From Candidatus Calescibacterium sp. (GTDB lineage Bacteria; DRYD01): a stretch of DNA of 64,000 bases. The notes under the pieces were generated by a model. That model was given only the letters and a program-made list of their open reading frames with translations, was not told where the DNA came from and did no database searches. The DNA lies in contig JANXBF010000002.1 in assembly GCA_025057615.1 (NCBI GenBank), positions 1 through 64,000 on the forward strand. Direction: 5' to 3'. Numbering within the stretch: the stretch's first letter is position 1; each line of letters starts with the position of its first letter. Positions 1-16,121 of the stretch are shown here, one piece after another. A program made the translations under genes and the position numbers.

Positions 1-1044
1 GAGCTTCTGTCACAAATTTATACTCCTGTAAGTATACCTTTTCAGCAACAAAATGGAGATTTAGTTGTTAACTTGGATACGTTGAATGTTCAGCAGAGAA
101 CTGCTTTGGCCACCTTACACGTTAATGGTGGTAATGTGATTATGATGCCCCCAAGTAATGGTAACGCCTCTCTTTCTGTTAATAATCCAAATGGTGTTCC
201 ACAGCCTTTTGATTTGACGGTAATATCAACAAGATTTAATAATACTGATAACATTCGAAATAGAACGTTTTATGCTCAGTCGACCAATCAGCCAGTTGAT
301 CAAAGGATTGGTGGTTGGAGTTTACCAGGTAATGGTAGCTTTACCCCCAATAATTTCATGGTTGACTTAGGTGGAACTAATGGAGTAAACTATGTATTAC
401 CTTCTCAAGACCCCGGAAGTTATGACAGAAGAAGACAAGTGATTAGAACTTTGGAAGGAAACGTTATAATTCAAGATTTCAATGATCAAATTGGTACTGG
501 CCAAATTGGTATAAGAGACGATGGTGAAAATGGAGGTTATGTAGGATTTAATATTAGTCAAACACCAAATTCTATTAACCCACGTAGAGCTGGTGGAAAG
601 CTTTCTATTTTAAGCCATAATTTTGTTTTACTGAATTATCAATTTAGTCAAAATCAGAGACCCGTATTTAATGGAAATAATATACGAGCAGGTTTAGCCG
701 CAGATATAATTTCATATAGAGGAAGTTTACAAATTGTGGATGAGGATTCATTCAGATTCTTACTTGATACTGGTAGGTTTAGAAGAGCTGAAGCTGAGAA
801 TTTCCTCAATAATATCACAACGAATGATAGATTGTATTGGTATGGAAAATATATAGCTAATTTCGCTAACGTAGAGGGAATAATGCTCCAAAGTGGAACT
901 ATAAGAGGGTTTGGAGAGACCATAATTGACGCAAGTGATTACAACTTTAATTTACCCAGATCTACACGAAGAGATTATAGAGTATTAATAAATAACAGAA
1001 CAGTAATACTTTTTGATATAATTCAATTCCAAATAAACAAGTAG
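1..1044 (+). CDS. C-terminal part of a secreted/surface-type hypothetical protein, possibly pilus-associated (5' end outside window)
   Basis: Frame is open from base 1 (ELLSQIYTPVSIPFQQQNGDLVVN...) through the listed ORF; Asn/Gly-rich beta-type sequence with phrases such as GNVIIQDF and RGSLQIVDED. Confidence 0.6.
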   Translation, partial: ELLSQIYTPVSIPFQQQNGDLVVNLDTLNVQQRTALATLHVNGGNVIMMPPSNGNASLSVNNPNGVPQPFDLTVISTRFNNTDNIRNRTFYAQSTNQPVDQRIGGWSLPGNGSFTPNNFMVDLGGTNGVNYVLPSQDPGSYDRRRQVIRTLEGNVIIQDFNDQIGTGQIGIRDDGENGGYVGFNISQTPNSINPRRAGGKLSILSHNFVLLNYQFSQNQRPVFNGNNIRAGLAADIISYRGSLQIVDEDSFRFLLDTGRFRRAEAENFLNNITTNDRLYWYGKYIANFANVEGIMLQSGTIRGFGETIIDASDYNFNLPRSTRRDYRVLINNRTVILFDIIQFQINK

Positions 1045-1835: not shown

Positions 1836-2258
1836 TTATTCTATTATTCTAATTTCATACTCTATTTCTGTGGACTTTTTGAGCATATGACTTACAGAAC
1901 AATATTTTTCTTGTGATAACTCGACTGCCTTTCTTATATTTTCATAACTGAGATTTTTTCCTCTGAATTGATATATGAGTTTTATTTTTGTAAATATTTT
2001 GGGATGTTCTTCTTTTCTTTGTCCCTCAAAAAAGATTCTGAAATCTTCTACCTCTTGCCTCATCTTTTTTAGAATGGATATTACGTCCATTGCTGTACAA
2101 CCCATTAGAGCTATTGAGAGGATTTCCATAGGAGTAGGAGCTGACTCAAAACCACCCACATCTTTTTTACTATCTAATATAATTGCATGGTTGGATTCTG
2201 TAACTCCTATAAATCTTAATCCTTCGTTCCAAATTAACTCTGATTTCATAATAATCAC
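1836..2258 (-). CDS. OsmC-family protein
   Basis: Small protein with the GxxxxPTPMEILSIALMGCTAMDVISIL pattern and a late CSVSHML motif typical of OsmC/Ohr-like proteins. Confidence 0.8.
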   Translation of the reverse strand: MIIMKSELIWNEGLRFIGVTESNHAIILDSKKDVGGFESAPTPMEILSIALMGCTAMDVISILKKMRQEVEDFRIFFEGQRKEEHPKIFTKIKLIYQFRGKNLSYENIRKAVELSQEKYCSVSHMLKKSTEIEYEIRIIE

Positions 2259-2288
2259 TCCTTTTTAGTATCTATAAGTTTATATTCT

Positions 2289-3497
2289 TTATTCTACTAT
2301 GAATATAGACTCCTTAGTTTTAAAGACATTCCTTAAATCATTTATTTCATCTATGGATGTTTTTTTTATGATATCTATATGTTTTGTTAAGTATTCATCA
2401 GGGAGATTATAAGCCTTTATTTTTGCTAATATTGCATTTCTGAAACTTCTTTTCTGTAGTGCTGATGCAAATAATCCTATTATATAATTCTTTGCAGTTT
2501 CCAACTCATCTTTATTAAAACCATTATTAATAATGTTTAATATTTCTTGTTTAAGAGCATTTATTGCCTCTTTTTTCTTTTCTTTTGATGTTAACATTAA
2601 TAATTTTATATTTCCTTTGCCAAAGGGTATGGGATCATAGACTGATGTTATAGCGTAAGCTAATTCTTTTTTTTCTCTTATGTTAATAAATAGTCTACCA
2701 GACATTGAGCTCAATATTCCATTTAAAATTTTGAATTTTATGGACTCAAGTGAGATAGAGGGAGCCTGATAAACAAAAGCTATTCCTGTTTCCTTTTTAC
2801 CTAAATTTTTAGTTTTTTTACTTGTTTTTATATCAAAATTTTTCATCATATCATAGTAATTGTGATCTATTTGAAGAATTTTGTTGAAATGTTTGTATAA
2901 ATATTTTTCTAAATTTTCGTTACAATAACCACTTACTACTATTATTTTTTTTACGTTTTTACTTAATACTTTGGATTCCATCCACGATATCAAATTATTT
3001 CTTGTTATTTCTTTCAAAGTTTTTGGAGTTCCTCTAGTATCCCAACTTAGAAAAGAATTATAAAATACCGTATCAGCATTTTCATATAGATATGTCCATA
3101 CATCATCTCTTGAAATTTTTATTGAGTTTATTAAGTCTCTTTTGCTTTCATCTATGTCCTCATATCTGAATTTGTAATTTGTTAAAACTTCTTTTAGAAT
3201 ATCCACAGCTTTTTTATAGTTGTAGAATGGAAAAGAGATTGATATTCCACTACTAAAATTACCAGTTGAAGAACTTAATGATACTGAATTCTTCTCAAGA
3301 TAATATTGAAATGAATCATAATTCATTGATTTTGTTGACCTAACAATTGTTTTAAAACATAGATTATTTATTCCCATATTGTTTGGCTTTTCTAAATAGT
3401 TGCCAACTAAAAATAATATTGATATGTAAGTTATCGGTATACTGTTATCTTGAACAATAAATATTTTGTTTTCAATATTTTTATATTTTATTTCCAT
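2289..3497 (-). CDS. M16-family (insulinase-like) protein without the canonical zinc motif
   Basis: M16-type fold pattern (LFLVGNYLEKPNNMGINNLC, C-terminal ELAYAITSVYDPIPFGKG); HxxEH not found. Confidence 0.75.
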   Translation of the reverse strand: MEIKYKNIENKIFIVQDNSIPITYISILFLVGNYLEKPNNMGINNLCFKTIVRSTKSMNYDSFQYYLEKNSVSLSSSTGNFSSGISISFPFYNYKKAVDILKEVLTNYKFRYEDIDESKRDLINSIKISRDDVWTYLYENADTVFYNSFLSWDTRGTPKTLKEITRNNLISWMESKVLSKNVKKIIVVSGYCNENLEKYLYKHFNKILQIDHNYYDMMKNFDIKTSKKTKNLGKKETGIAFVYQAPSISLESIKFKILNGILSSMSGRLFINIREKKELAYAITSVYDPIPFGKGNIKLLMLTSKEKKKEAINALKQEILNIINNGFNKDELETAKNYIIGLFASALQKRSFRNAILAKIKAYNLPDEYLTKHIDIIKKTSIDEINDLRNVFKTKESIFIVE

Positions 3498-4414
3498 ATT
3501 TCCACTTCTTCTTCTAAGTTTATCCCTTTTTTCAAAGAATCATTCTTTATTTTTTGTATGATGTTTATAACATCACTAAATTTTGCATTATTGAAGTTAA
3601 CGATGAAGTTGGAATGTTTTTCTGAAACTTTGGCTCCACCTACGGTGTATCCTCTGTAGCCCAAGTCTGAGACTATTTTCCAAGCAGGTGTGTTTGATAA
3701 GTTTTTAAATACACTACCACATGATTTTTGGTTAATTGGTTGAGTAATGATTCTTTTATGCCATGTATCCTTATATATCTGTTTCAATTTATTTTTATCA
3801 GTTATGTTTTTTGATGGAAATTCGAATACAAATGAAACTAAATCTAACATATTACCATTCATATTTTCTTGCTTAAAAAAAGAATTTCTATATGAGAAGA
3901 ATGTTTTATCAACTTCAATTGATCTTATTGATTTTCTCTTTCTATCAAAAAATGTGACTTTTTTCAAAAAATCTGATATTTCCACGTTTTTTATGCCCGC
4001 GTTATTGAATACTGCTCCACCTACAGTTGCTGGTATTCCAGCTAATTCTTCATAACCACTTATACCGTTATCTATTAGAAGTTTAATAAAATATTGTAAT
4101 TCTGTGAAAGAAGTGGAAAATACCCTTATCTTTCTTTCATCCCTAAAAATCCTTACAATTCTGTATTTACCTGTAATTATAAAGAAATCCAATCTTTCAT
4201 CATTTGCTAAGATATTACTGCCTTTTCCTAATATTCTATACGGAACTCTGTTTGATATACTATATAAAGTTTTTATATATTCCTGGTGATTATTTACAAA
4301 TATAACACCAAGCGGCTTTCCACCTATTCCATAAGTGGTTAATGTGGATAAACATATATCATCCCTACAATTGTGGACTTTGAGGTTGGTTAAAAAGGTA
4401 TTCTTTTTTGACAC
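3488..4414 (-). CDS. murB: UDP-N-acetylmuramate dehydrogenase
   Basis: TTYGIGGKP, LGKGSNIL, GYEELAGIPATVGGAVFNNAG, NQKSCGSVFKN, GGAKVSEKHSNFIVN. Confidence 0.95.
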   Translation of the reverse strand: MSKKNTFLTNLKVHNCRDDICLSTLTTYGIGGKPLGVIFVNNHQEYIKTLYSISNRVPYRILGKGSNILANDERLDFFIITGKYRIVRIFRDERKIRVFSTSFTELQYFIKLLIDNGISGYEELAGIPATVGGAVFNNAGIKNVEISDFLKKVTFFDRKRKSIRSIEVDKTFFSYRNSFFKQENMNGNMLDLVSFVFEFPSKNITDKNKLKQIYKDTWHKRIITQPINQKSCGSVFKNLSNTPAWKIVSDLGYRGYTVGGAKVSEKHSNFIVNFNNAKFSDVINIIQKIKNDSLKKGINLEEEVEIWK

Positions 4415-4421
4415 AAATTTT

Positions 4422-4919
4422 CTATTTTTTGGTCTTTTTGGTCTTTCTAAACTTATTCTTTAAGGGAGGTAATTTTGTAAATGTTGAGTTAGTACTTCGT
4501 AATTTTTCTAAGGCATTTTTTGTTATTTTATGTGCATATAAATTTAAAGTTTTTGTTAGTTGACCGTTACCTAATATTTTTACTTCTTTTTTTATGTCTT
4601 TGATTAGTCCCTTTTGTAATAGATTTTCTGGTTTTACAACATCATTGTTCTCAAAAACATTTAGATCTTGTAGTTTGACGATGTGATATTCTTTTTTAAA
4701 TATATTTTTGAATCCTTTTGATGGTACTCTGAGGTACAGTGGATTTTGTCCGCCTTCAAACCATTCGGGTTTTGCTCCTCCGCTTCTGGATTTCTGCCCT
4801 TTTGTTCCTCTTGTTGAGGTTACACCATGACCACTACCTAAACCTCTTCCAACTCTTTTTCTTTTGTGTTTGCTATTGGGAAATGGTTTTAAATCTTGTA
4901 ATTTATACATTTTCATCAC
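4422..4919 (-). CDS. rplO: 50S ribosomal protein L15
   Basis: [30 protein letters not shown] near the N terminus. Confidence 0.96.
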
Positions 4920-5548
4920 CTACTTTTTTTGTAGTATTTAGAACTTTTGGAAAAGTTTTTTCTTTCAAATTTTTTTCTTTCTTCATTTTCTTCATTTTTT
5001 TCTTCTTTTTCAATAGGTTTTTCACTTTTTGAAGCTTGGTAATATTTATCAAATTCATCTTCTTTGTATTCTGCAGTTAAAATTTCTCTGTATTCTTCTT
5101 TGGTTTTTAGTTTCTTGAGTGCATCTATTGTTGCCCAAACCAGGTTTATGTGGTTATTACTACCTAGTGATTTTGTTAGAACGTTTTTATAACCGGCTTT
5201 TTCTAATACGCTTCTTACTGGCATTGATGCTATAATACCAGTTCCTTTACCTGCAGGTTTTAGTAAAACTTTCGAAGTTGTGTTTGAACCAAATACTTCA
5301 TGTGGTATTGTACCATTAATTATTGGAACTTTAATAGTATTCTTTTTTGCTTTATTTTCAGCTTTTCTTATTGCTAATAAAGCTTCTGGAGCCTTAGCTA
5401 AGGCCACACCTACGTTACCTTGTCCGTCTCCTACCACAACTAAAGCACTAAACCTGAACCTTTTGCCACCTTTCATTACCCTCGTAACCCTTCTTAAGGA
5501 AACTAATACGCTTTGATATTCTGATGTTTGTTCTAAAGTTTCCAGCAT
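4916..5548 (-). CDS. rpsE: 30S ribosomal protein S5
   Basis: [55 protein letters not shown]. Confidence 0.97.
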
Positions 5549-5559
5549 TATTACCCTCC

Positions 5560-5934
5560 CTATACTTGTATTCCTTTTTCTCTTAAAGTATCAGCTATCT
5601 TTTTTATGTTACCGTGATATTTGTATCCGCCTCTATCAAAAACAAGTTTGTTTATATTTAATTTTTTACATCTTTCTGCCAATCTTGAAGCAACTTCTAT
5701 AACTATATCCTTGTATTTCATTTCTTTCTTTTGATATTTATCTTTTATGTCTTTTTCTAAGGAGTTGGAATATGTTAGTGTTCTACCTGTTGTATCATCT
5801 ATTACACTTAAGTAGATATTCTTATTGCTTCTGAATACGTTACATCTGGGTTTTTGGGGATTACCTTTTATTTTCTTTCTTAGCCTTTTATGTCTTATTT
5901 TTCTTTTTTCATTCCTGCTTATCTTTTTTATCAT
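5560..5934 (-). CDS. rplR: 50S ribosomal protein L18
   Basis: [26 protein letters not shown] and [24 protein letters not shown]. Confidence 0.96.
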
Positions 5935-6012
5935 TGTGCTGCACCTTCCTTAGTTTTTAATACTTTCTATATAAGATTCTATTTTATTTTTTATTTTCCT
6001 TTGTTTAAAAAT

Positions 6013-7029
6013 TCAGCTTACTTTTAGAACTGCTCTGAGTTTTGCTTTGCCTTTTCTAACTATTTCTAATGCTCTAGGTAATTCATGAAATTCAAACGTT
6101 TCTACCATAGGTTTTAAATTGTTTGATATTGATAATTTAATAGTTTCTATCAAATCTATTCTACTTCCAACAGCATTACCTGTGAGAACTAGATTTTTAG
6201 AGATTAAACTTATTGGTTGGAATGAAATTTCATTTATGTGTGCTCCTACGAAAGATATTTTTCCATAAGCTTTCAGATAGGGTATAAATTTCATTGCTAT
6301 TTCTGAATTTGGTAATGTGGATAGAACTATATCTAACTTACCAACTTTTTCTATTTCATCATATGTTAGGAATTGATCTGCTCCTAATTTTTCTGCTAAT
6401 TTTTTCTTGGAAATATCTGATGAAAAAACTATTGTATATGCTCCAAAAGTTCTGGAGTATTGAACTGCCATATGTCCCAAGCCACCTAATCCAAGTATTG
6501 CAACTCTCATCATTGGTTTTATATTGAGTTTTTTTAAAGCTGTATAGGTTGTTAATCCAGCACAGTAAAGAGGAGCAATTTCTTCCAATTTCCAATTGTC
6601 TATGTTTACCAATTTGTTCACAGGTATTGCAAATTCTCTTCTTAGAACACAATATTCTGAATAGCCACCTATGGTGTTAATTCCAGTTATTTTCCTATTT
6701 TCACAGAATTGTTCATTTGACGACAAACAGTACTCGCAATCTAAACATGAAGAATGAACCCATGGTAATCCAACTATATCATTTATATCCACTTTGTCTA
6801 CATTTTTCCCTTTTTTAACAACTTTTCCTATGACTTCGTGTCCTGGTGTGAGTGGATAATTTACAAACCCTCTTGAATTCCAATCTCCATCAATTATGTG
6901 TATATCACTATGACAAATCCCACAATAATCAACTTTAATTAGGACTTCATTATCATCTATTTCATAAATTTCAGATCTTTCTAAAGTTATATCAGATGGT
7001 TTATTACAAACCCATCTTCGGTATTCCAT
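6013..7029 (-). CDS. Zinc-dependent alcohol dehydrogenase family protein
   Basis: VDYCGICHSDIHIIDGDW, PGHEVIGKVVKKG, Cys-rich structural zinc segment, GLGGLGHMAVQ Rossmann motif. Start taken at internal ATG 7029, consistent with family N termini. Confidence 0.9.
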   Translation of the reverse strand: MEYRRWVCNKPSDITLERSEIYEIDDNEVLIKVDYCGICHSDIHIIDGDWNSRGFVNYPLTPGHEVIGKVVKKGKNVDKVDINDIVGLPWVHSSCLDCEYCLSSNEQFCENRKITGINTIGGYSEYCVLRREFAIPVNKLVNIDNWKLEEIAPLYCAGLTTYTALKKLNIKPMMRVAILGLGGLGHMAVQYSRTFGAYTIVFSSDISKKKLAEKLGADQFLTYDEIEKVGKLDIVLSTLPNSEIAMKFIPYLKAYGKISFVGAHINEISFQPISLISKNLVLTGNAVGSRIDLIETIKLSISNNLKPMVETFEFHELPRALEIVRKGKAKLRAVLKVS

Positions 7030-7154
7030 AATAAAATAATTACAATAAATATTTGTTTTAACCTTTAGATTGATCAATTTTGAATAGGAAAAGGTGTAAT
7101 CAAAGTGGAATAGAATATAAAATAGGGGATAAGAAAGAATAAAAGGGGGGTTCT

Positions 7155-7982
7155 ATGAAAACTTTTTTCAAAGTTTTTTCCATAGGTGTTTTGCTTTTGA
7201 TAGTTATAGCCGTTTTTGCTTTTGCACAACAGTTGTATATTTTTATACATAACAAACCCTACAAAGGGGATTATATTTACCAAGGTAACAGAATTTATGT
7301 TGAAATAAATCAATTTGTAAAAATGACTAATCTCAAAATGTATAACCAAGGTAATTATTATGTTCTGAGTGATAAAACTATAGTTCCACCTGCTTCTTTC
7401 ACCAGTTTAGTTTATTACAATAATAAGCCTCTTAAGTATGTTATATTTCAGAATTCCAAGGTTTATGTCGATCTTTTTGAACTATCTTATTTTACAAATG
7501 CTGTGGTTGAATTTAATAAAGAAACAGGCATTGTTGACTACTATAGCAAAGCTAAAGTTGAATTAACTGCCCAACAGGTATATCAAGCATCTGAGCAAAT
7601 TTATAACACCCAAAAAGACATATATTCAACTGATAAGAAAAAGATACAAGTTGGTGAAAAACCTAAAATACCTGCCGATGCCATAAAGATTGTCGATGAA
7701 AACCCACAATATGATGACAAAAATAATAGAGGAGAACTTAGATATACAGCTAAGGTTAAAAATACTTATAAAGAAACTATTGAAGATATAAAAATAAAGA
7801 TAAAAATAGTTAGCCCAGCGAATGATGTTCTTCATGAGGAAAAATTTTCTTTTTCCCTACTCAAACCAGGTGAATCAAAAGAAATAAGTTTTTATTGGAT
7901 AAATAACACCTCTATACCTTTACCTCAAATAAAATACGAGATAGATTTTAAAGGTAAAGAAGAACAAGAAAAAGATAAATGA
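7155..7982 (+). CDS. Exported hypothetical protein with an N-terminal signal and C-terminal FxLYD-like region
   Basis: Hydrophobic N terminus (FSIGVLLLIVIAVFAFA); C-terminal LRYTAKVKNTYKETIEDIKIKIKI...KPGESKEISF pattern. Confidence 0.6.
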   Translation: MKTFFKVFSIGVLLLIVIAVFAFAQQLYIFIHNKPYKGDYIYQGNRIYVEINQFVKMTNLKMYNQGNYYVLSDKTIVPPASFTSLVYYNNKPLKYVIFQNSKVYVDLFELSYFTNAVVEFNKETGIVDYYSKAKVELTAQQVYQASEQIYNTQKDIYSTDKKKIQVGEKPKIPADAIKIVDENPQYDDKNNRGELRYTAKVKNTYKETIEDIKIKIKIVSPANDVLHEEKFSFSLLKPGESKEISFYWINNTSIPLPQIKYEIDFKGKEEQEKDK

Positions 7983-8566
7983 AAATTAAATTTTTAAATA
8001 AAATAAGAAACAATGTCAGAAATTTTATACATAAAAACCTGGTTTTCTTAGTTCCTACATTGATTTATGATAATATAGAGAAAATAACACCCCAAAAGTT
8101 AAGGGAACTGAATGTTGATACAATATTACTCGATTTGGATAATACTCTGGTTCCTTGGAATAAAAAACAAATACCCAATGCTATATGTAAATATCTTTCA
8201 TCTTTAAAGGAAGCCGGGTTTAAAATTTGTATAGTTTCTAATGCTTTGCCCATAAGAGTTAAAAAAATAAGTGAAGAGCTGAATATACCATATATTGCTT
8301 TGGCAGCTAAACCATCCACCAGACCACTAAGAAAAGCCATTAAGATACTCAACTCCAATATTGAAAATACTGTGATAATAGGAGATCAGCTTTTTACTGA
8401 TATTCTTGCGGGTAACAGATTGGGAATAAAAACCATTCTTGTTAGACCATTGGCTAAATTTGAACTTGTAACATCAAAATTTATTAGGCTAATAGAAAAG
8501 AAAATACTGTCATATTTAGCTAAAAAAAATTATATATCCTCCAAAGAGGTTAAAATTGAAAAATGA
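7979..8566 (+). CDS. YqeG-family HAD-type phosphatase
   Basis: TILLDLDNTLVPW (HAD motif I), ALAAKPSTRPLRKA, IIGDQLFTDILAGNRLGIKTILVRPL. Confidence 0.88.
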   Translation: MKIKFLNKIRNNVRNFIHKNLVFLVPTLIYDNIEKITPQKLRELNVDTILLDLDNTLVPWNKKQIPNAICKYLSSLKEAGFKICIVSNALPIRVKKISEELNIPYIALAAKPSTRPLRKAIKILNSNIENTVIIGDQLFTDILAGNRLGIKTILVRPLAKFELVTSKFIRLIEKKILSYLAKKNYISSKEVKIEK

Positions 8567-9222
8567 AAAAGGGAATAATATGGTCATACACTAAAGGAGA
8601 ATTCGTTATATTTGATCATTACTACTTTTCAACTCTTTATAATTATATAAATTCTAATTATAAGTTAGAAATACCAACTAAGTTCAATGAATTAATAAAA
8701 ATAGCAAGTCAAGATGAATATAAAGCGATTATATTTAATTATCCAGAAAAGTCGTTTACATCCAGACAAATTGAAGCGTTGCTTGAACTTTTTTACAAAG
8801 GAAAGACTCTGGTATTTTTAACATACTATAAAAATGAAGATAGGAGTAGTGAAATTGTTAATTCTATACTCACTAAAGTCGGATTAAAGATAAATTATGA
8901 TGAAGTATTGCAACTAAGTAATATACATAATAATGATAAATATTTAATCATTACTTCACAAGTAAGTGATAAATTAAAAAATGGTTTGAAAAGTGTAATA
9001 ATGCCATGTACCTCAAGTATTGATATTATAGAAAAAGAGGGTTATGTTTATGATGTATTACTTAGAAATGATAGTGGGGATAAAGTAATAGCTGCTGAAG
9101 TTGGGAAAAAAGGTAAAATTATCGCTTTCGGAACTTGTGTATTCTGGGATAATTTTTCCATATCTCTTTATGATAACTTTCAATTTACTAAAAAATTAAT
9201 AAATTACTGTTTGGAGGTATAA
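8563..9222 (+). CDS. Hypothetical protein
   Basis: ORF overlapping the upstream stop; AIIFNYPEKSFTSRQIEALLELFYKGKTLVFL looks like a Rossmann/GATase1-like layout, weakly. Confidence 0.55.
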   Translation: MKKGIIWSYTKGEFVIFDHYYFSTLYNYINSNYKLEIPTKFNELIKIASQDEYKAIIFNYPEKSFTSRQIEALLELFYKGKTLVFLTYYKNEDRSSEIVNSILTKVGLKINYDEVLQLSNIHNNDKYLIITSQVSDKLKNGLKSVIMPCTSSIDIIEKEGYVYDVLLRNDSGDKVIAAEVGKKGKIIAFGTCVFWDNFSISLYDNFQFTKKLINYCLEV

Positions 9223-10508: not shown

Positions 10509-11840
10509 ATGGTTAAAACGCAGGACGTTATTTCTATTTTGAAAGACCAAAAAGTTCAAAGTATAAGAATGATGTTTGTAGATATATTAGGAATTCCTAA
10601 AGGTGTACAAATCCCCGTTTCTCAAGCTAAAAAGATGCTTGATGGAGAAATACTATTTGATGGTTCTTCAATACAGGGATTCGTTAGAATTGAAGAATCA
10701 GATATGAAATTGGTCCCAGATCTCAATACTTTTGTTGTTGCTGACCTTAAAGGATACAACGAAGCCTTTGTTGTTTGTGATGTTTATTATCCAAATGGTA
10801 AGAGGTTTGAGGGTGATCCGAGATTTGTTCTTCAGAAAGTATTGGAAAAATCTAAAAAGATGGGATTTATTCCAATGGTTGGTGTTGAAGCCGAATTTTT
10901 CCTGTTTCCCATGAATACTGGTAAAGGATTTGCTAGTGCCCCTGTTTTAGAACATACGGATTCAGGTGGATATTTTGATATGTTGTATCTTGATTCAGCT
11001 GAGCAGGTTAAATTGGATATACTAAAAAAATTAGAGGAATTTGGTTTTGAGGTTGAAGCTCTACATCACGAAGTTGCCCCTTCACAACATGAAATAGATT
11101 TTAAATACAGCGATGCTTTGACTACAGCTGATAGATTGTTACTATTCAAAATAATTGTTAAAACAATAGCCCTAAGATATGGTTTGCATGCCACATTTTT
11201 ACCAAAACCAATAAAAGGTATAAACGGGTCTGGATTACATATGCATCAGTCTCTATTCAAAGGAGAAACTAATTCTTTCTATGATAATAGATCTTCAAAT
11301 GGTATTAGCGAAACGATGTTGAACTATATTGGAGGCATATTTAAACATGTCAAAAGTTTTACTGCAGTAACTAATCCTTTGGTTAATTCATATAAGAGAT
11401 TGGTTCCTGGTTATGAGGCTCCTGTATATATTTCTTGGGGAGAACATAATAGGAGTCCTCTAATAAGGATACCTGCCAAAAGAGGAAATTCTACAAGAAT
11501 AGAGCTAAGAAGTCCCGATCCTTCGTGTAATCCTTATCTTGCTTTCTCCGTAATAATTAACTCCGGACTTGATGGAATAAATAACAAATATCAACCTCCT
11601 AAACCAATTGATTTAAATGTATATGAATTGGATAATCAAACTATGAAAAAATATAAAATAGAGCAATTACCATCTAATCTATATGAAGCATTGATTGAAA
11701 TGCAAAAAGATAGCTTTATTAAAGAAACACTAGGGGAACATATATACTATAACTTTATAAACTCAAAAATGAAAGAATGGAAGGATTATTCCACTGAGGT
11801 AACAGATTGGGAACTACAAAAATACTTCAGTATATACTAA
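10509..11840 (+). CDS. glnA: Glutamine synthetase type I
   Basis: ILFDGSSIQGFVRIEESDMKL, GLHATFLPKPIKGINGSGLHMHQSL, NPLVNSYKRLVPGYEAPVYISW, RIELRSPDPSCNPYLAF. Confidence 0.97.
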   Translation: MVKTQDVISILKDQKVQSIRMMFVDILGIPKGVQIPVSQAKKMLDGEILFDGSSIQGFVRIEESDMKLVPDLNTFVVADLKGYNEAFVVCDVYYPNGKRFEGDPRFVLQKVLEKSKKMGFIPMVGVEAEFFLFPMNTGKGFASAPVLEHTDSGGYFDMLYLDSAEQVKLDILKKLEEFGFEVEALHHEVAPSQHEIDFKYSDALTTADRLLLFKIIVKTIALRYGLHATFLPKPIKGINGSGLHMHQSLFKGETNSFYDNRSSNGISETMLNYIGGIFKHVKSFTAVTNPLVNSYKRLVPGYEAPVYISWGEHNRSPLIRIPAKRGNSTRIELRSPDPSCNPYLAFSVIINSGLDGINNKYQPPKPIDLNVYELDNQTMKKYKIEQLPSNLYEALIEMQKDSFIKETLGEHIYYNFINSKMKEWKDYSTEVTDWELQKYFSIY

Positions 11841-11855
11841 ATAATGACCCCATAA

Positions 11856-12764
11856 ATGGAACCAAATAAATGGACTATAAAATCATACGCAAAGATAAAT
11901 TGGGTTTTAGAAATACTAAATATCAGGAAAGATGGTTATCATAACATATCGTCTATATTTGATATAATAGAACTTTTCGATATAATAACAATAGAATTTT
12001 GGGATGATGAAAAGTGGAGTGTTGATATACACTCTAATGTAAAAGAGTTAGAAAGAGAAAATATAATATATAGGGTTTTCGAAGAATTGAATTCTGTGGA
12101 TACCAGGGGTAAGTATAGGGTAAACATAAAACTTGAAAAGAACATTCCGTTGGGTGGGGGGTTGGGAGGTGGCAGCTCTAACGCAGCTTCTATCATATAT
12201 TTCCTATATTACAAACGAATAATAGATATACCTTCCGCGTTTAGAATGTGTAAATCTTTGGGAAGCGATGTTTTACCTATTTTTATGACTTATCTGTATA
12301 AGAATCATTATATTTTTTGTTTTGAAAGACAGAATATATGTGTTCCCCACACTAAATTTTATAATTCAATCTATAATTTTTTTTTAGTATTTTCTCCTTT
12401 TCGTGTTAACACAAAACAAGCTTATGAAGAATATGACAAGATGATAAAAAATAGAGACTTATTCATAGGATATAGAACTTACAGATTTCTTAGCTTTTTA
12501 AAAAAAGGAATGATTAGAGAATATTTTTATTACCTAATACATAATGATTTTGAGAAAATTATTTATGATTATTACAAGAATATTTATTTCATAAAGGAAA
12601 TGATTTACGATTGTTGTGGTAAAGAAAATGTTAGGGTATTCTTGTGTGGAAGTGGATCGACTTTAGCCGTTATTACAAAAGATGAAAGATGTGATGTTAG
12701 TACGTTGAAAAAGGTTATAGAAGATGCGGGATTGGTTTTCAGGGAGGTAAATGTATGGTTCTGA
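11856..12764 (+). CDS. ispE: 4-diphosphocytidyl-2-C-methyl-D-erythritol kinase
   Basis: SYAKINWVLEILNIRKDGYHNISS and GHMP motif IPLGGGLGGGSSNAAS; late FLCGSGSTLAV. Confidence 0.92.
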   Translation: MEPNKWTIKSYAKINWVLEILNIRKDGYHNISSIFDIIELFDIITIEFWDDEKWSVDIHSNVKELERENIIYRVFEELNSVDTRGKYRVNIKLEKNIPLGGGLGGGSSNAASIIYFLYYKRIIDIPSAFRMCKSLGSDVLPIFMTYLYKNHYIFCFERQNICVPHTKFYNSIYNFFLVFSPFRVNTKQAYEEYDKMIKNRDLFIGYRTYRFLSFLKKGMIREYFYYLIHNDFEKIIYDYYKNIYFIKEMIYDCCGKENVRVFLCGSGSTLAVITKDERCDVSTLKKVIEDAGLVFREVNVWF

Positions 12765-13483
12765 TTAGGCCTGAAAAATGGGGTGCAATAGGGGAAGTTG
12801 AGTTACTTATATTCATGCTTGATGGTTCCGCTAGTATGTATGAAACTAATACTTTTGACGGGAGAAGGAAATCTGACCACCTCGTTAATATTGTATATGA
12901 TACTTTGGAGAGGTTGAGAGCAAGTAGCAGAAGTAACAGTTTTAGAGCTTCATTGGTGTATTTTTCTGATAGTGTTATAGTTCCTAAAGTTGATGGTATA
13001 CCATATTATAGTCTGGAGGAGGCAATCAATGAGATAACTGATCCTGTAATAAAAATGGCTGGAGGAGGAACATCTATAGCTAATGCTCTCAATGAAACCT
13101 CCAAAATTATTGATGAATTCAACAGAGATATAGGACTACCTGATGAGAAACATATAACTGTTTTTCTTTTTACCGATGGTAACGAAAATATAAAAACTAC
13201 AAAGGATGTTATTAATGAAGCACTTAAAATAAAAAGTATGGGAGTTACTATATGTTGTATATCTCTTGGAAATGATTGTGATGAAAAATTACTTGTAGAA
13301 ATATCAAGTGTTGCAAGTTTAAGACAGGTTAAAAGAATGGATTTGGCCAATATGTTAGACTTCTTAACCAAGGAACATGAAAACTATAAACTTTTTTTAA
13401 AAGGCCATGTGGACGGTAAGATAAGTAAGAGTATCTCTGAAGCAATAAGAAGCTTTATGAACATATTAAGTGAAACAAGATAA
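12755..13483 (+). CDS. VWA-domain protein (TerY/YegL-like)
   Basis: MIDAS-type FMLDGSASM (DxSxS), GGGTSIANAL, FLFTDGNEN; overlaps ispE and the kinase ORF. Confidence 0.85.
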   Translation: MVLIRPEKWGAIGEVELLIFMLDGSASMYETNTFDGRRKSDHLVNIVYDTLERLRASSRSNSFRASLVYFSDSVIVPKVDGIPYYSLEEAINEITDPVIKMAGGGTSIANALNETSKIIDEFNRDIGLPDEKHITVFLFTDGNENIKTTKDVINEALKIKSMGVTICCISLGNDCDEKLLVEISSVASLRQVKRMDLANMLDFLTKEHENYKLFLKGHVDGKISKSISEAIRSFMNILSETR

Positions 13484-15258
13484 TGTCTATAATATTTAAA
13501 TTAGAAGATAATAAGACTATTAAGATAGAAATCGAGGACTTAAAAGATCCTATATTTGGTGGACAGGGAAGAATATATTTTTATAGGGATTACCTTTTAA
13601 AAGTTCTTCCGCTTGATGATGATACTGAATCTATACCACGGAGATTCAAAACTTTAAAGAAAGTTTGTGCTAATCTTAATGATGAAATAAAAAAATTCAT
13701 AGTTTACAGAGGAATACCATTATCTATATCTGTTGACTTTAAAAACTATTTCAATTTCAGAACAACAGATAAAGCTATTCTCTTACTCTTTAATTTTCTT
13801 GATGGTGAAGATCTGTTCAATTTTCTCAAGGATGAACTACCTCTTAGCCAAAAAAGAATAAATGTATACAGAAAATTGATAGATATACTTATTGCTGTTA
13901 ATTCGGTGGGTATAATTCATGGCGATCTTTATCCAGATAACTTTTTGGTAGACAAAAATGAAGATGTTTATATTCTTGATTTGGAAGGTGCTGGTATATT
14001 AATTGATAGAAAAGAATGGGAGTGGAAACCTCTTGTTATTGGAAAAGAGAGTCTTTTCCCCTTACCTCCAGAAGTGAAGTTTAAAAATGAATTCACCATC
14101 TATTCTGATGTTTGGACTGGGGTTTATTTGCTCTTTTTTATTCTTACTGGTATAAAACCGTTAGATTTTATGTTAAGAAATGATCATAAATATTTACAGA
14201 GTATTATACCTAGTATTAACAAATCAAAGAATTCTTGGCCGCCAGAATTACCTGTTAATTCCATAAGGGAACAAAGAAAGTATGCAGATTTTCATTCTTT
14301 TTATAGCTCTCTATTTAAGAAAAAAAAGTTGTCAGAAATACTTATTAATACCTATATTAAAGGATATCTTGATTATACTTACAGACCTAAGTTTGAAGAA
14401 ATTAAAGAGGCTATTGATTATGAATTGAATATTCAACATTATCAAACACTCTTGGATCAAAGAATATTAAATCCAGTAATCGAAAATGTACCAGATAAAC
14501 ATGTTCTAAGTAATACTGATTTAAGTATTATAGAAGAAAAAGATTTGTTACAAAAAATGGAAGGGCAGAAAAAAGAACAAGATCAGAAATCAGAAAAAAC
14601 TGAAAAAGTTGAACAAAACAAAATTGATTTATCAGAACTTGACAAATCAGATGATAAAAAATATAGATTTCAGAATTATATTAACAACCTTCCTGTATCT
14701 ACTAGAGAATACTTAAACAATATTATTTCATCTTTGAAAAATGAAAAATTATATGGAGAGGAAATTGAAAAAGCTATAGAAGAACTCATAAAAATGAAAC
14801 ATACGGAAATTATTGTTAATACTTTCATAAAAACAAAGGATATTCATTTGGTTGCTTTATTTTTAAAGTTCATTTATGCTGGATACTGGCAGAATTTACT
14901 AGATTCTTTATACGCTCTTTCCAATGTCTCAAACCTTGGGGTCTACAGAATAATAGAGCAAAAAGTTTTACCAATTATTGTTAAGACTAGGAGGAAGAGC
15001 GAAAATATTTTGGATAACTATAAAGAAATTTTTGAACATATATATTCTTCTATAAATAAAGAAATATCTTTTTACTCAAGTAAAAAAGCGGAGATTGTCT
15101 CAAATTATTTGCTTGTCACCTTTTGTTTTCTTTCTTTTATTGTTCCTTTTGTAATGTTCTATTTTTTTAAAATGAGTTATGTTTCTATGATTTTGATATA
15201 TCCATTTTTACTTATTTTGTTTTTGATTGTTTTCAGGATGGTTTTCATTTTTGTATGA
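13483..15258 (+). CDS. Protein kinase-like protein with C-terminal transmembrane segments
   Basis: Glycine-rich loop GGQGRIYF, candidate Lys in LLKVL, catalytic loop IIHGDLYPDNFLV, metal motif ILDLEGAG; Glu/Lys-rich linker and two hydrophobic C-terminal segments. Confidence 0.82.
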   Translation: MSIIFKLEDNKTIKIEIEDLKDPIFGGQGRIYFYRDYLLKVLPLDDDTESIPRRFKTLKKVCANLNDEIKKFIVYRGIPLSISVDFKNYFNFRTTDKAILLLFNFLDGEDLFNFLKDELPLSQKRINVYRKLIDILIAVNSVGIIHGDLYPDNFLVDKNEDVYILDLEGAGILIDRKEWEWKPLVIGKESLFPLPPEVKFKNEFTIYSDVWTGVYLLFFILTGIKPLDFMLRNDHKYLQSIIPSINKSKNSWPPELPVNSIREQRKYADFHSFYSSLFKKKKLSEILINTYIKGYLDYTYRPKFEEIKEAIDYELNIQHYQTLLDQRILNPVIENVPDKHVLSNTDLSIIEEKDLLQKMEGQKKEQDQKSEKTEKVEQNKIDLSELDKSDDKKYRFQNYINNLPVSTREYLNNIISSLKNEKLYGEEIEKAIEELIKMKHTEIIVNTFIKTKDIHLVALFLKFIYAGYWQNLLDSLYALSNVSNLGVYRIIEQKVLPIIVKTRRKSENILDNYKEIFEHIYSSINKEISFYSSKKAEIVSNYLLVTFCFLSFIVPFVMFYFFKMSYVSMILIYPFLLILFLIVFRMVFIFV

Positions 15259-16121
15259 TATACTTAATAACTGATTACGGAGAAAGAGATTATTTTGTTT
15301 GTGCTATAAAGACTGTGATTATTAACTTTTGTAGAGTTTTAAATGTGGATTTACCTTTAATTTTTGACATAACTCATAATATTTGCAGTTATGAGCCTAT
15401 TCCAGCAATTTTGAATATCAAGTCTATGTTAGATCTAATTCCTCATAGATCTATTATTGTTTGCGTTGTTGATCCTGAAGTCGGATCTTCCGTTTTGCCC
15501 TGCCTATCTAAACACGTATATAAAAAAAAGGAAATATTCTTTATTGGAAGGAATAATGGTATTTTGGGTGCTTTTGCAAATTCTAAACATTCTTTTACTT
15601 ATCAGATATCTATTAAAAAGATAGAACGGGATATAAAACGTGGTGGTTTGTTCTATAAATCGGGTATAAAAAATATAAGTAATACTTTTCATGGGAGAGA
15701 TGTATTTGCCCCAATTGCTTCAATTCTCTATTGTGATTTGGTAAAGGGTTCAAGTAACATACAAAGATTTATTAGTAAAAAAATAAAGCCATCATATTTG
15801 AAGATACCTGACCCTCTGGTTAGTGAGAATCAAATTTGTGGCAGAGTGGTGTATTCAGATAAATTTGGAAACCTCGTAACCAATATACCTTCTTCCATTC
15901 TATCTTTAAAGATCAGGAGAATAGATATTGAAATCAATGGAAGTGTCTTTACGATTGATAGGGTTTACAAAAACTATTTGGAAGGTCAAAATAGGGATCT
16001 AATTGTTATTGCTAACAGTTTTGGATACCTTGAGATCAGTAGATTTAAACAGAGTGCGGAAGATTTCATAAAAAACTTTGGAAGCATTAAAAATGTAAAA
16101 ATCTGTATAAGTTTATCATAG
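15255..16121 (+). CDS. SAM hydroxide adenosyltransferase / SAM hydrolase (DUF62 family)
   Basis: MIYLITDYGERDYFVCAIK, VCVVDPEVGSS, FHGRDVFAPIAS, DKFGNLVTNIP are hallmarks of the DUF62/fluorinase-like fold. Confidence 0.88.
   Translation: MIYLITDYGERDYFVCAIKTVIINFCRVLNVDLPLIFDITHNICSYEPIPAILNIKSMLDLIPHRSIIVCVVDPEVGSSVLPCLSKHVYKKKEIFFIGRNNGILGAFANSKHSFTYQISIKKIERDIKRGGLFYKSGIKNISNTFHGRDVFAPIASILYCDLVKGSSNIQRFISKKIKPSYLKIPDPLVSENQICGRVVYSDKFGNLVTNIPSSILSLKIRRIDIEINGSVFTIDRVYKNYLEGQNRDLIVIANSFGYLEISRFKQSAEDFIKNFGSIKNVKICISLS

Follow-up and report, generated by a model that had tools for sequence, protein, structure and literature searches.

A VWA/kinase/PP2C set, probably a phosphorylation switch, dispersed in the genome of a Candidatus Calescibacterium

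A VWA-kinase pair with a probable phosphatase on another contig

We analysed a 64,000-nucleotide stretch of Candidatus Calescibacterium sp. (contig JANXBF010000002.1, positions 1 to 64,000; hereafter the window), in which three co-directional, successively overlapping open reading frames (ORFs; 12755-13483, 13483-15258 and 15255-16121) encode a VWA protein, a Hanks-type kinase and a DUF62 protein. VWA protein and kinase probably belong to a reversible phosphorylation switch of three proteins; the gene for the third, a PP2C phosphatase, lies apart from both, on contig C17 of this genome. This reading draws on the identities of the genes, their intact motifs, an independent operon encoding all three proteins, the joint absence of VWA and PP2C from some relatives, and the decay of the kinase where they are absent. 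A first-pass annotation had described the three ORFs, with coordinates, protein families, motifs, linker and transmembrane (TM) pair that all hold up here; it had also put a S-adenosylmethionine (SAM)-degrading enzyme, the DUF62 protein, in the phosphatase position. Given the PP2C gene on C17 and the homologous triad of the independent operon, DUF62 does not stand in the phosphatase's place: the phosphatase is not replaced, but separated from its partners.

Six genomes of a small clade, 71-90% complete, were compared: the window genome (G000, 1.4 Mb), three others of its genus (G001-G003) and two of a sister genus (G004 and G005); a further relative, G006, belongs to another family. The independent operon comes from an unrelated metagenome-assembled genome (MAG), uncultured bacterium AlinenLipids_bin-0794 (CAIXPS010000333.1; L054), found by a kinase-profile search of named genomes. 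Copies of all three window proteins in G003 are 91-95% identical, which marks the three ORFs as true genes rather than chance reading frames.

12755..13483, + strand: VWA protein of 242 aa without a TM segment, a putative kinase adaptor (PF00092, E = 6.7e-13; matches the L054 VWA)
12821..12835, + strand: DxSxS (DGSAS) of the metal-ion-dependent adhesion site (MIDAS), from the sequence and the VWA alignment; Thr at 13070-13072 (GGGT), Asp at 13175-13177 (TDG)
13483..15258, + strand: Hanks-type kinase of 591 aa, with kinase domain (~1-320), linker (323-392), helical domain (~393-540) and TM pair (PF00069, Pkinase, E = 1.1e-10; AlphaFold2; Foldseek)
13555..13578, + strand: glycine loop FGGQGRIY (VAIK-type Lys at 13600-13602), kept in G003, G001 and L054, lost in G002, G004 and G005
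13918..13941, + strand: catalytic loop HGDLYPDN; His lost from G002, G004 and G005, with Asp and Asn conserved throughout
13978..13995, + strand: DFG-equivalent DLEGAG, a family signature also found in L054; Asp replaced by Asn in G004 and G005
14449..14658, + strand: charged disordered linker (predicted local distance difference test score, pLDDT, below 50 at residues 323-392; 43% D/E/K/R)
15109..15246, + strand: C-terminal TM pair (hydropathy peaks at residues 543-561 and 570-588)

The MIDAS of the window VWA protein is intact (DxSxS...T...D, with DGSAS at residues 23-27, GGGT at 103-106 and TDG at 140-142); the AlphaFold2 model of this protein was of low confidence (pLDDT 51) and hence set aside. 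The G001 VWA protein (L031 4092-4727) carries an in-frame 41-aa deletion that takes out the MIDAS Thr loop, while the motifs of the adjoining kinase are kept.

In the kinase, IIHGDLYPDNFLV, ILDLEGAG, the 43%-charged linker and the C-terminal TM pair are seen as first described. By sequence, the window protein has the catalytic residues of a Ser/Thr kinase, and the set of glycine loop, Lys, HxD, Asn and DFG-Asp is complete in G000, G003, G001 and L054. The AlphaFold2 model (pLDDT 76.7) shows the kinase domain with confidence, followed by a disordered linker and, towards the C-terminus, a helical domain; in Foldseek it matches Ser/Thr kinases including PknB and CHK1 at a probability of 1.00. An identity as a RIO, Kdo, APH or lanthionine-synthetase kinase was dropped, as these scored below Pkinase. 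PADLOC kinase matches (PD-T4-6, mad6) were judged generic to the kinase domain because YegI matches some of the same models, and an antiphage system was not adopted. Planctomycete and other distant kinase loci (E 1e-7 to 1e-4) were likewise rejected as sharing only a generic kinase domain.

The C17 phosphatase and an independent triad operon

The window genome has a single PP2C_2 match (C17 10274-11026), which falls below the Pfam cut-off and has conserved metal Asp motifs. The same gene is present in G003, and G001 has its N-terminal part at the edge of a contig; G002, G004 and G005 gave no PP2C match.

In L054, VWA (1240-2094), kinase (2095-3123) and PP2C (3120-4271) form an overlapping operon, and its products are clear homologues of all three proteins by BLASTP (window VWA, 38% identity, E = 1e-47; window kinase, 3e-47; C17 PP2C, 5e-14), with the DLYPDNF, DLEGAG and GGQGR motifs common to both kinases. 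The C17 PP2C has no match among Protein Data Bank (PDB) chains at E<=1, so its match to L054 is specific and not a generic PP2C resemblance. This operon supports the earlier proposal of a VWA-kinase signalling pair broadly similar in type to TerY/YegI. It differs from the window set in being contiguous, in lying beside an IS66-like ORF, and in its kinase, which at 342 aa lacks the linker and TM domain. On the simplest reading, the triad would be ancestral and was later split in the window genus. When 386 genomes from across the domain and 396 of L054's class were searched with the A4 VWA profile, only the triads already known came back, and none were found on plasmids, phages or viral contigs.

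The IS66-like ORF lies upstream of the L054 triad (2-535), and five uncharacterised opposite-strand genes, one with an S1 domain, lie downstream (4828-9108); these surroundings could be a mobile or defence context. On C17, the PP2C gene is directly followed by a gene for a 420-aa protein with an N-terminal TM segment (L039 9008-10270), whose G002 homologue (L083 5099-6367) is only 31% identical, against 80% for the flanking ALDH-like gene; the protein is possibly a sensor for the triad.

VWA and PP2C are absent together, and the kinase decays without them

G000, G003 and G001 have both VWA and PP2C; G002, G004 and G005 have neither. In G002 the absences are clean at two unlinked syntenic loci: at the VWA site ispE and the kinase gene overlap directly, and at the PP2C site lysC, lysA, the membrane protein p422 and the ALDH-like gene (80% identity) are all retained, with a 247-bp gap between p422 and the ALDH-like gene that holds no PP2C remnant.

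Kinases of the genomes without VWA and PP2C have lost catalytic motifs; in that of G002 the glycine loop and the HRD His are gone. The G002 kinase domain is 43% identical to that of the window, compared with 60% for G001, against LeuS identities of 78% and 74%, respectively. With L054 as outgroup, unique kinase-domain changes number 50 in G002 versus 16 in G000 (p=3e-5), and 44 in G002 versus 17 in G001 (p=7e-4), whereas neither LeuS nor the C-terminal part of the kinase is accelerated in G002. These patterns suggest that a VWA/kinase/PP2C switch can be dispersed over the chromosome yet lost as a unit.

The unaccelerated C-terminal part, together with the persistence in G002, G004 and G005 of degenerate kinases with C-terminal hydrophobic segments, would also fit a membrane protein that is mainly a scaffold or pseudokinase, conserved for its C-terminal membrane region and with catalysis dispensable. 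We regard this as very unlikely, as all catalytic elements are intact in G000, G003, G001 and L054, and the C-terminal part is wholly absent from the L054 kinase. Somewhat less improbable, though still unlikely, is that kinase and VWA are an ordinary pair using other phosphatases and that the C17 PP2C serves other kinases: the genome has seven kinase-family matches to its one PP2C_2 match, and a kinase (C17:5418-6545) lies on the PP2C's own contig, about 4 kb off. That kinase, however, persists in G002 (L083 9027-10160) without PP2C, whereas PP2C tracks VWA, and its L054 relative is encoded with VWA and kinase.

Several points weigh against a switch of these three proteins. Just one independent triad operon was found. 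The co-absence represents one or two events, possibly a single one, in a small clade of incomplete MAGs, and LeuS leaves it undecided whether G001 or G002 was the first branch. The G001 contig holds only the N-terminal PP2C fragment, and the G001 VWA protein is without its MIDAS Thr loop while the kinase and PP2C of that genome persist. Finally, the rate test gives no acceleration when the G004 and G005 kinases, themselves degenerate (DFG-Asp to Asn), are used as outgroup.

In the proposed three-protein switch, the C-terminal TM pair would hold the kinase at the inner membrane face, where it would phosphorylate itself, a client or both; the VWA protein, with its MIDAS, may bind the kinase or the client in an Mg2+- and acidic-ligand-dependent manner, and PP2C would reset the phosphorylation. 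Complex formation, kinase activity, and the substrate and signal of the switch are what we infer from the observations above. These three defined proteins, together with a natural relative that has neither VWA nor PP2C and can serve as control, offer a test of the role of the VWA subunit in such triads.

DUF62 as a probable operon passenger

15255..16121, + strand: DUF62/SAM_HAT protein of 288 aa, a putative operon passenger (SAM_HAT_N, E = 6.4e-25; SAM_HAT_C, E = 7.9e-13); unlinked from the kinase in G004 and G005, absent after the kinase in G001
15465..15494, + strand: VVDPEVGSSV, with triad Asp73 kept and Val80 (15492-15494) at the triad Arg position in an ungapped alignment from Asp73
15690..15692, + strand: triad His146 (TFHGRD), kept, by sequence comparison

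The full VWA-kinase-DUF62 cassette is limited to the window genome and one ~95%-identical relative, G003, where the order glnA-ispE-VWA-kinase-DUF62 is nearly identical to that of the window. G002 has glnA-ispE-kinase-DUF62, without VWA. In G001, ispE-VWA-kinase is followed by a convergent hutI-like gene; DUF62 is absent at the locus and was not found elsewhere in this 71%-complete genome. In G004 and G005 the kinase gene adjoins tsaD and DUF62 is located elsewhere. DUF62 and VWA are gained or lost independently of each other, and DUF62 tracks neither VWA nor PP2C, in keeping with the operon hitch-hiking that the first pass had offered as an alternative; DUF62 would be a separate, vertically inherited gene carried on a shared transcript.

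The kinase homologues beside tsaD (L034 4198-6300 in G005, L035 6238-8130 in G004) are degenerate, with Asn for DFG-Asp and no glycine loop. A Bud32-like link suggested by this adjacency was dismissed, the DFG-Asp being lost and no such link existing in the window genus. In G004 the kinase and tsaD share their stretch with lysA; in the window genome, PP2C lies between lysA and tsaD.

The DUF62 protein has both Pfam domains of the (R,S)-SAM hydrolase/SAM hydroxide adenosyltransferase family (PF01887/PF20257; NF058624, NF053629), well above the cut-offs (SAM_HAT_N 88.1 bits against 26.3, SAM_HAT_C 49 bits against 25.5), and keeps the triad Asp and His. It differs in having Val for the triad Arg and RNNG for PDNG, and lies far under the NCBIfam equivalog cut-offs (63 vs 350 bits). 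The references 2zbu (VVDYGVGTSR) and MJ1651 (VIDPTVGSER) both align ungapped from Asp73 and end in the Arg in question. Across the genus the Asp-Arg-His triad is without its Arg (Val in the window genome and G003, Ile in G002), while Arg is present in G004 and G006 and Lys in G005. Without the catalytic Arg, SAM-degrading activity of the window protein is doubtful, and a DUF62 branch of this kind is here brought to notice. RNNG replaces the PDNG loop throughout the DUF62 family compared (window 15549-15560), and the triad Arg may possibly have been relocated, supplied from this loop. PDB entry 22uy has Gln where MJ1651 has this Arg, which looks like a deliberate mutation.

The first pass had tentatively coupled the cassette to SAM turnover or methylation state, and had itself named a lack of wider three-gene linkage, or a PP2C elsewhere, as grounds for giving this up; both are now observed. 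That VWA, kinase and DUF62 are one such signalling module, with DUF62 as phosphatase substitute, now appears highly improbable: kinase and DUF62 overlap at an ATGA and are adjacent in G000, G003 and G002, but a PP2C homologous to the triad phosphatase is encoded elsewhere in the genome, no DUF62 follows the kinase in G001 and it is unlinked in G004 and G005, G002 retains DUF62 in the absence of VWA and PP2C, the protein lacks its catalytic Arg, and overlaps of this sort are ordinary in the window (see below). The kinase-DUF62 adjacency kept in G002 despite the absent VWA and PP2C is also the basis for supposing that DUF62, lacking its Arg, no longer hydrolyses but binds SAM or adenosine, as a subunit through which a membrane kinase or pseudokinase senses SAM status; we give this equally little credence. 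Judged by its gene neighbourhood, with the phosphatase slot given to a SAM enzyme, the system would probably have been mis-assigned.

Comparison with TerY-P and YegI systems

Published TerY-P triads bring together a TerY-like VWA protein, a PP2C and a kinase that carries a zinc ribbon or OB-fold; links to tellurite resistance and to restriction or defence loci are described (PMC11090510, PMC4978471). Common to them and the window set are the three kinds of protein, a MIDAS VWA and a proposed phosphorylation-dependent switch. Unlike in TerY-P, the C-terminus of the window kinase is a helical TM domain; the Pfam search found no zinc ribbon or OB-fold there, and the predicted TM pair is laid out much as in YegI. 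The PP2C is unlinked, and no defence, tellurite or DNA-processing genes were seen beside the cassette among the window ORFs, in contrast to the known triads. The PADLOC TerY models match neither the window VWA nor that of L054.

YegI is reported to be a membrane-bound, autophosphorylating kinase that is dephosphorylated by PphC (PMC13232886). The E. coli YegI/PphC (YegK)/YegL set resembles that of the window in combining a membrane-anchored kinase, a PP2C and a VWA protein, and in the layout of a predicted TM pair after the kinase domain (YegI 393-411 and 417-435; window 543-561 and 570-588). The E. coli genes are adjacent, whereas those of the window genome are split. BLASTP of YegL and PphC against the window set gave no match, and YegI matched only the G002 kinase (E 0.003). 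The YegI system may be regarded as the closest functional analogue, with no membership found at the sequence level.

The set is best read as a dispersed VWA/kinase/PP2C phospho-switch that would work in a TerY-P- or YegL/YegI/PphC-like manner, while not being detectably of the same family. We file it as a variant outside both named families because the PP2C is non-adjacent (adjacency of the TerY-P or YegL-YegI-PphC type is found only in L054), there is no detectable TerY or Yeg similarity, and no zinc-ribbon or OB fusion was found in the kinase.

Locus layout and upstream genes

Two further genes, glnA and ispE, lie upstream on the same strand as the cassette.

10509..11840, + strand: glnA-type glutamine synthetase (translation and synteny; 88% identical in G002)
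11856..12764, + strand: ispE, upstream neighbour in the co-directional run (TIGR00154, E = 1.4e-28, below cut-off; synteny in G001-G003)

Shared bases number 10 between ispE and VWA, 1 between VWA and kinase, and 4 (ATGA) between kinase and DUF62. Overlap is common in the window: of 58 pairs of neighbouring ORFs on the same strand, 26 overlap and 43 are within 30 bases of each other, so it is no sign of functional linkage and was discarded as evidence of it; the overlapping ends of the cassette probably imply shared transcription and nothing further.

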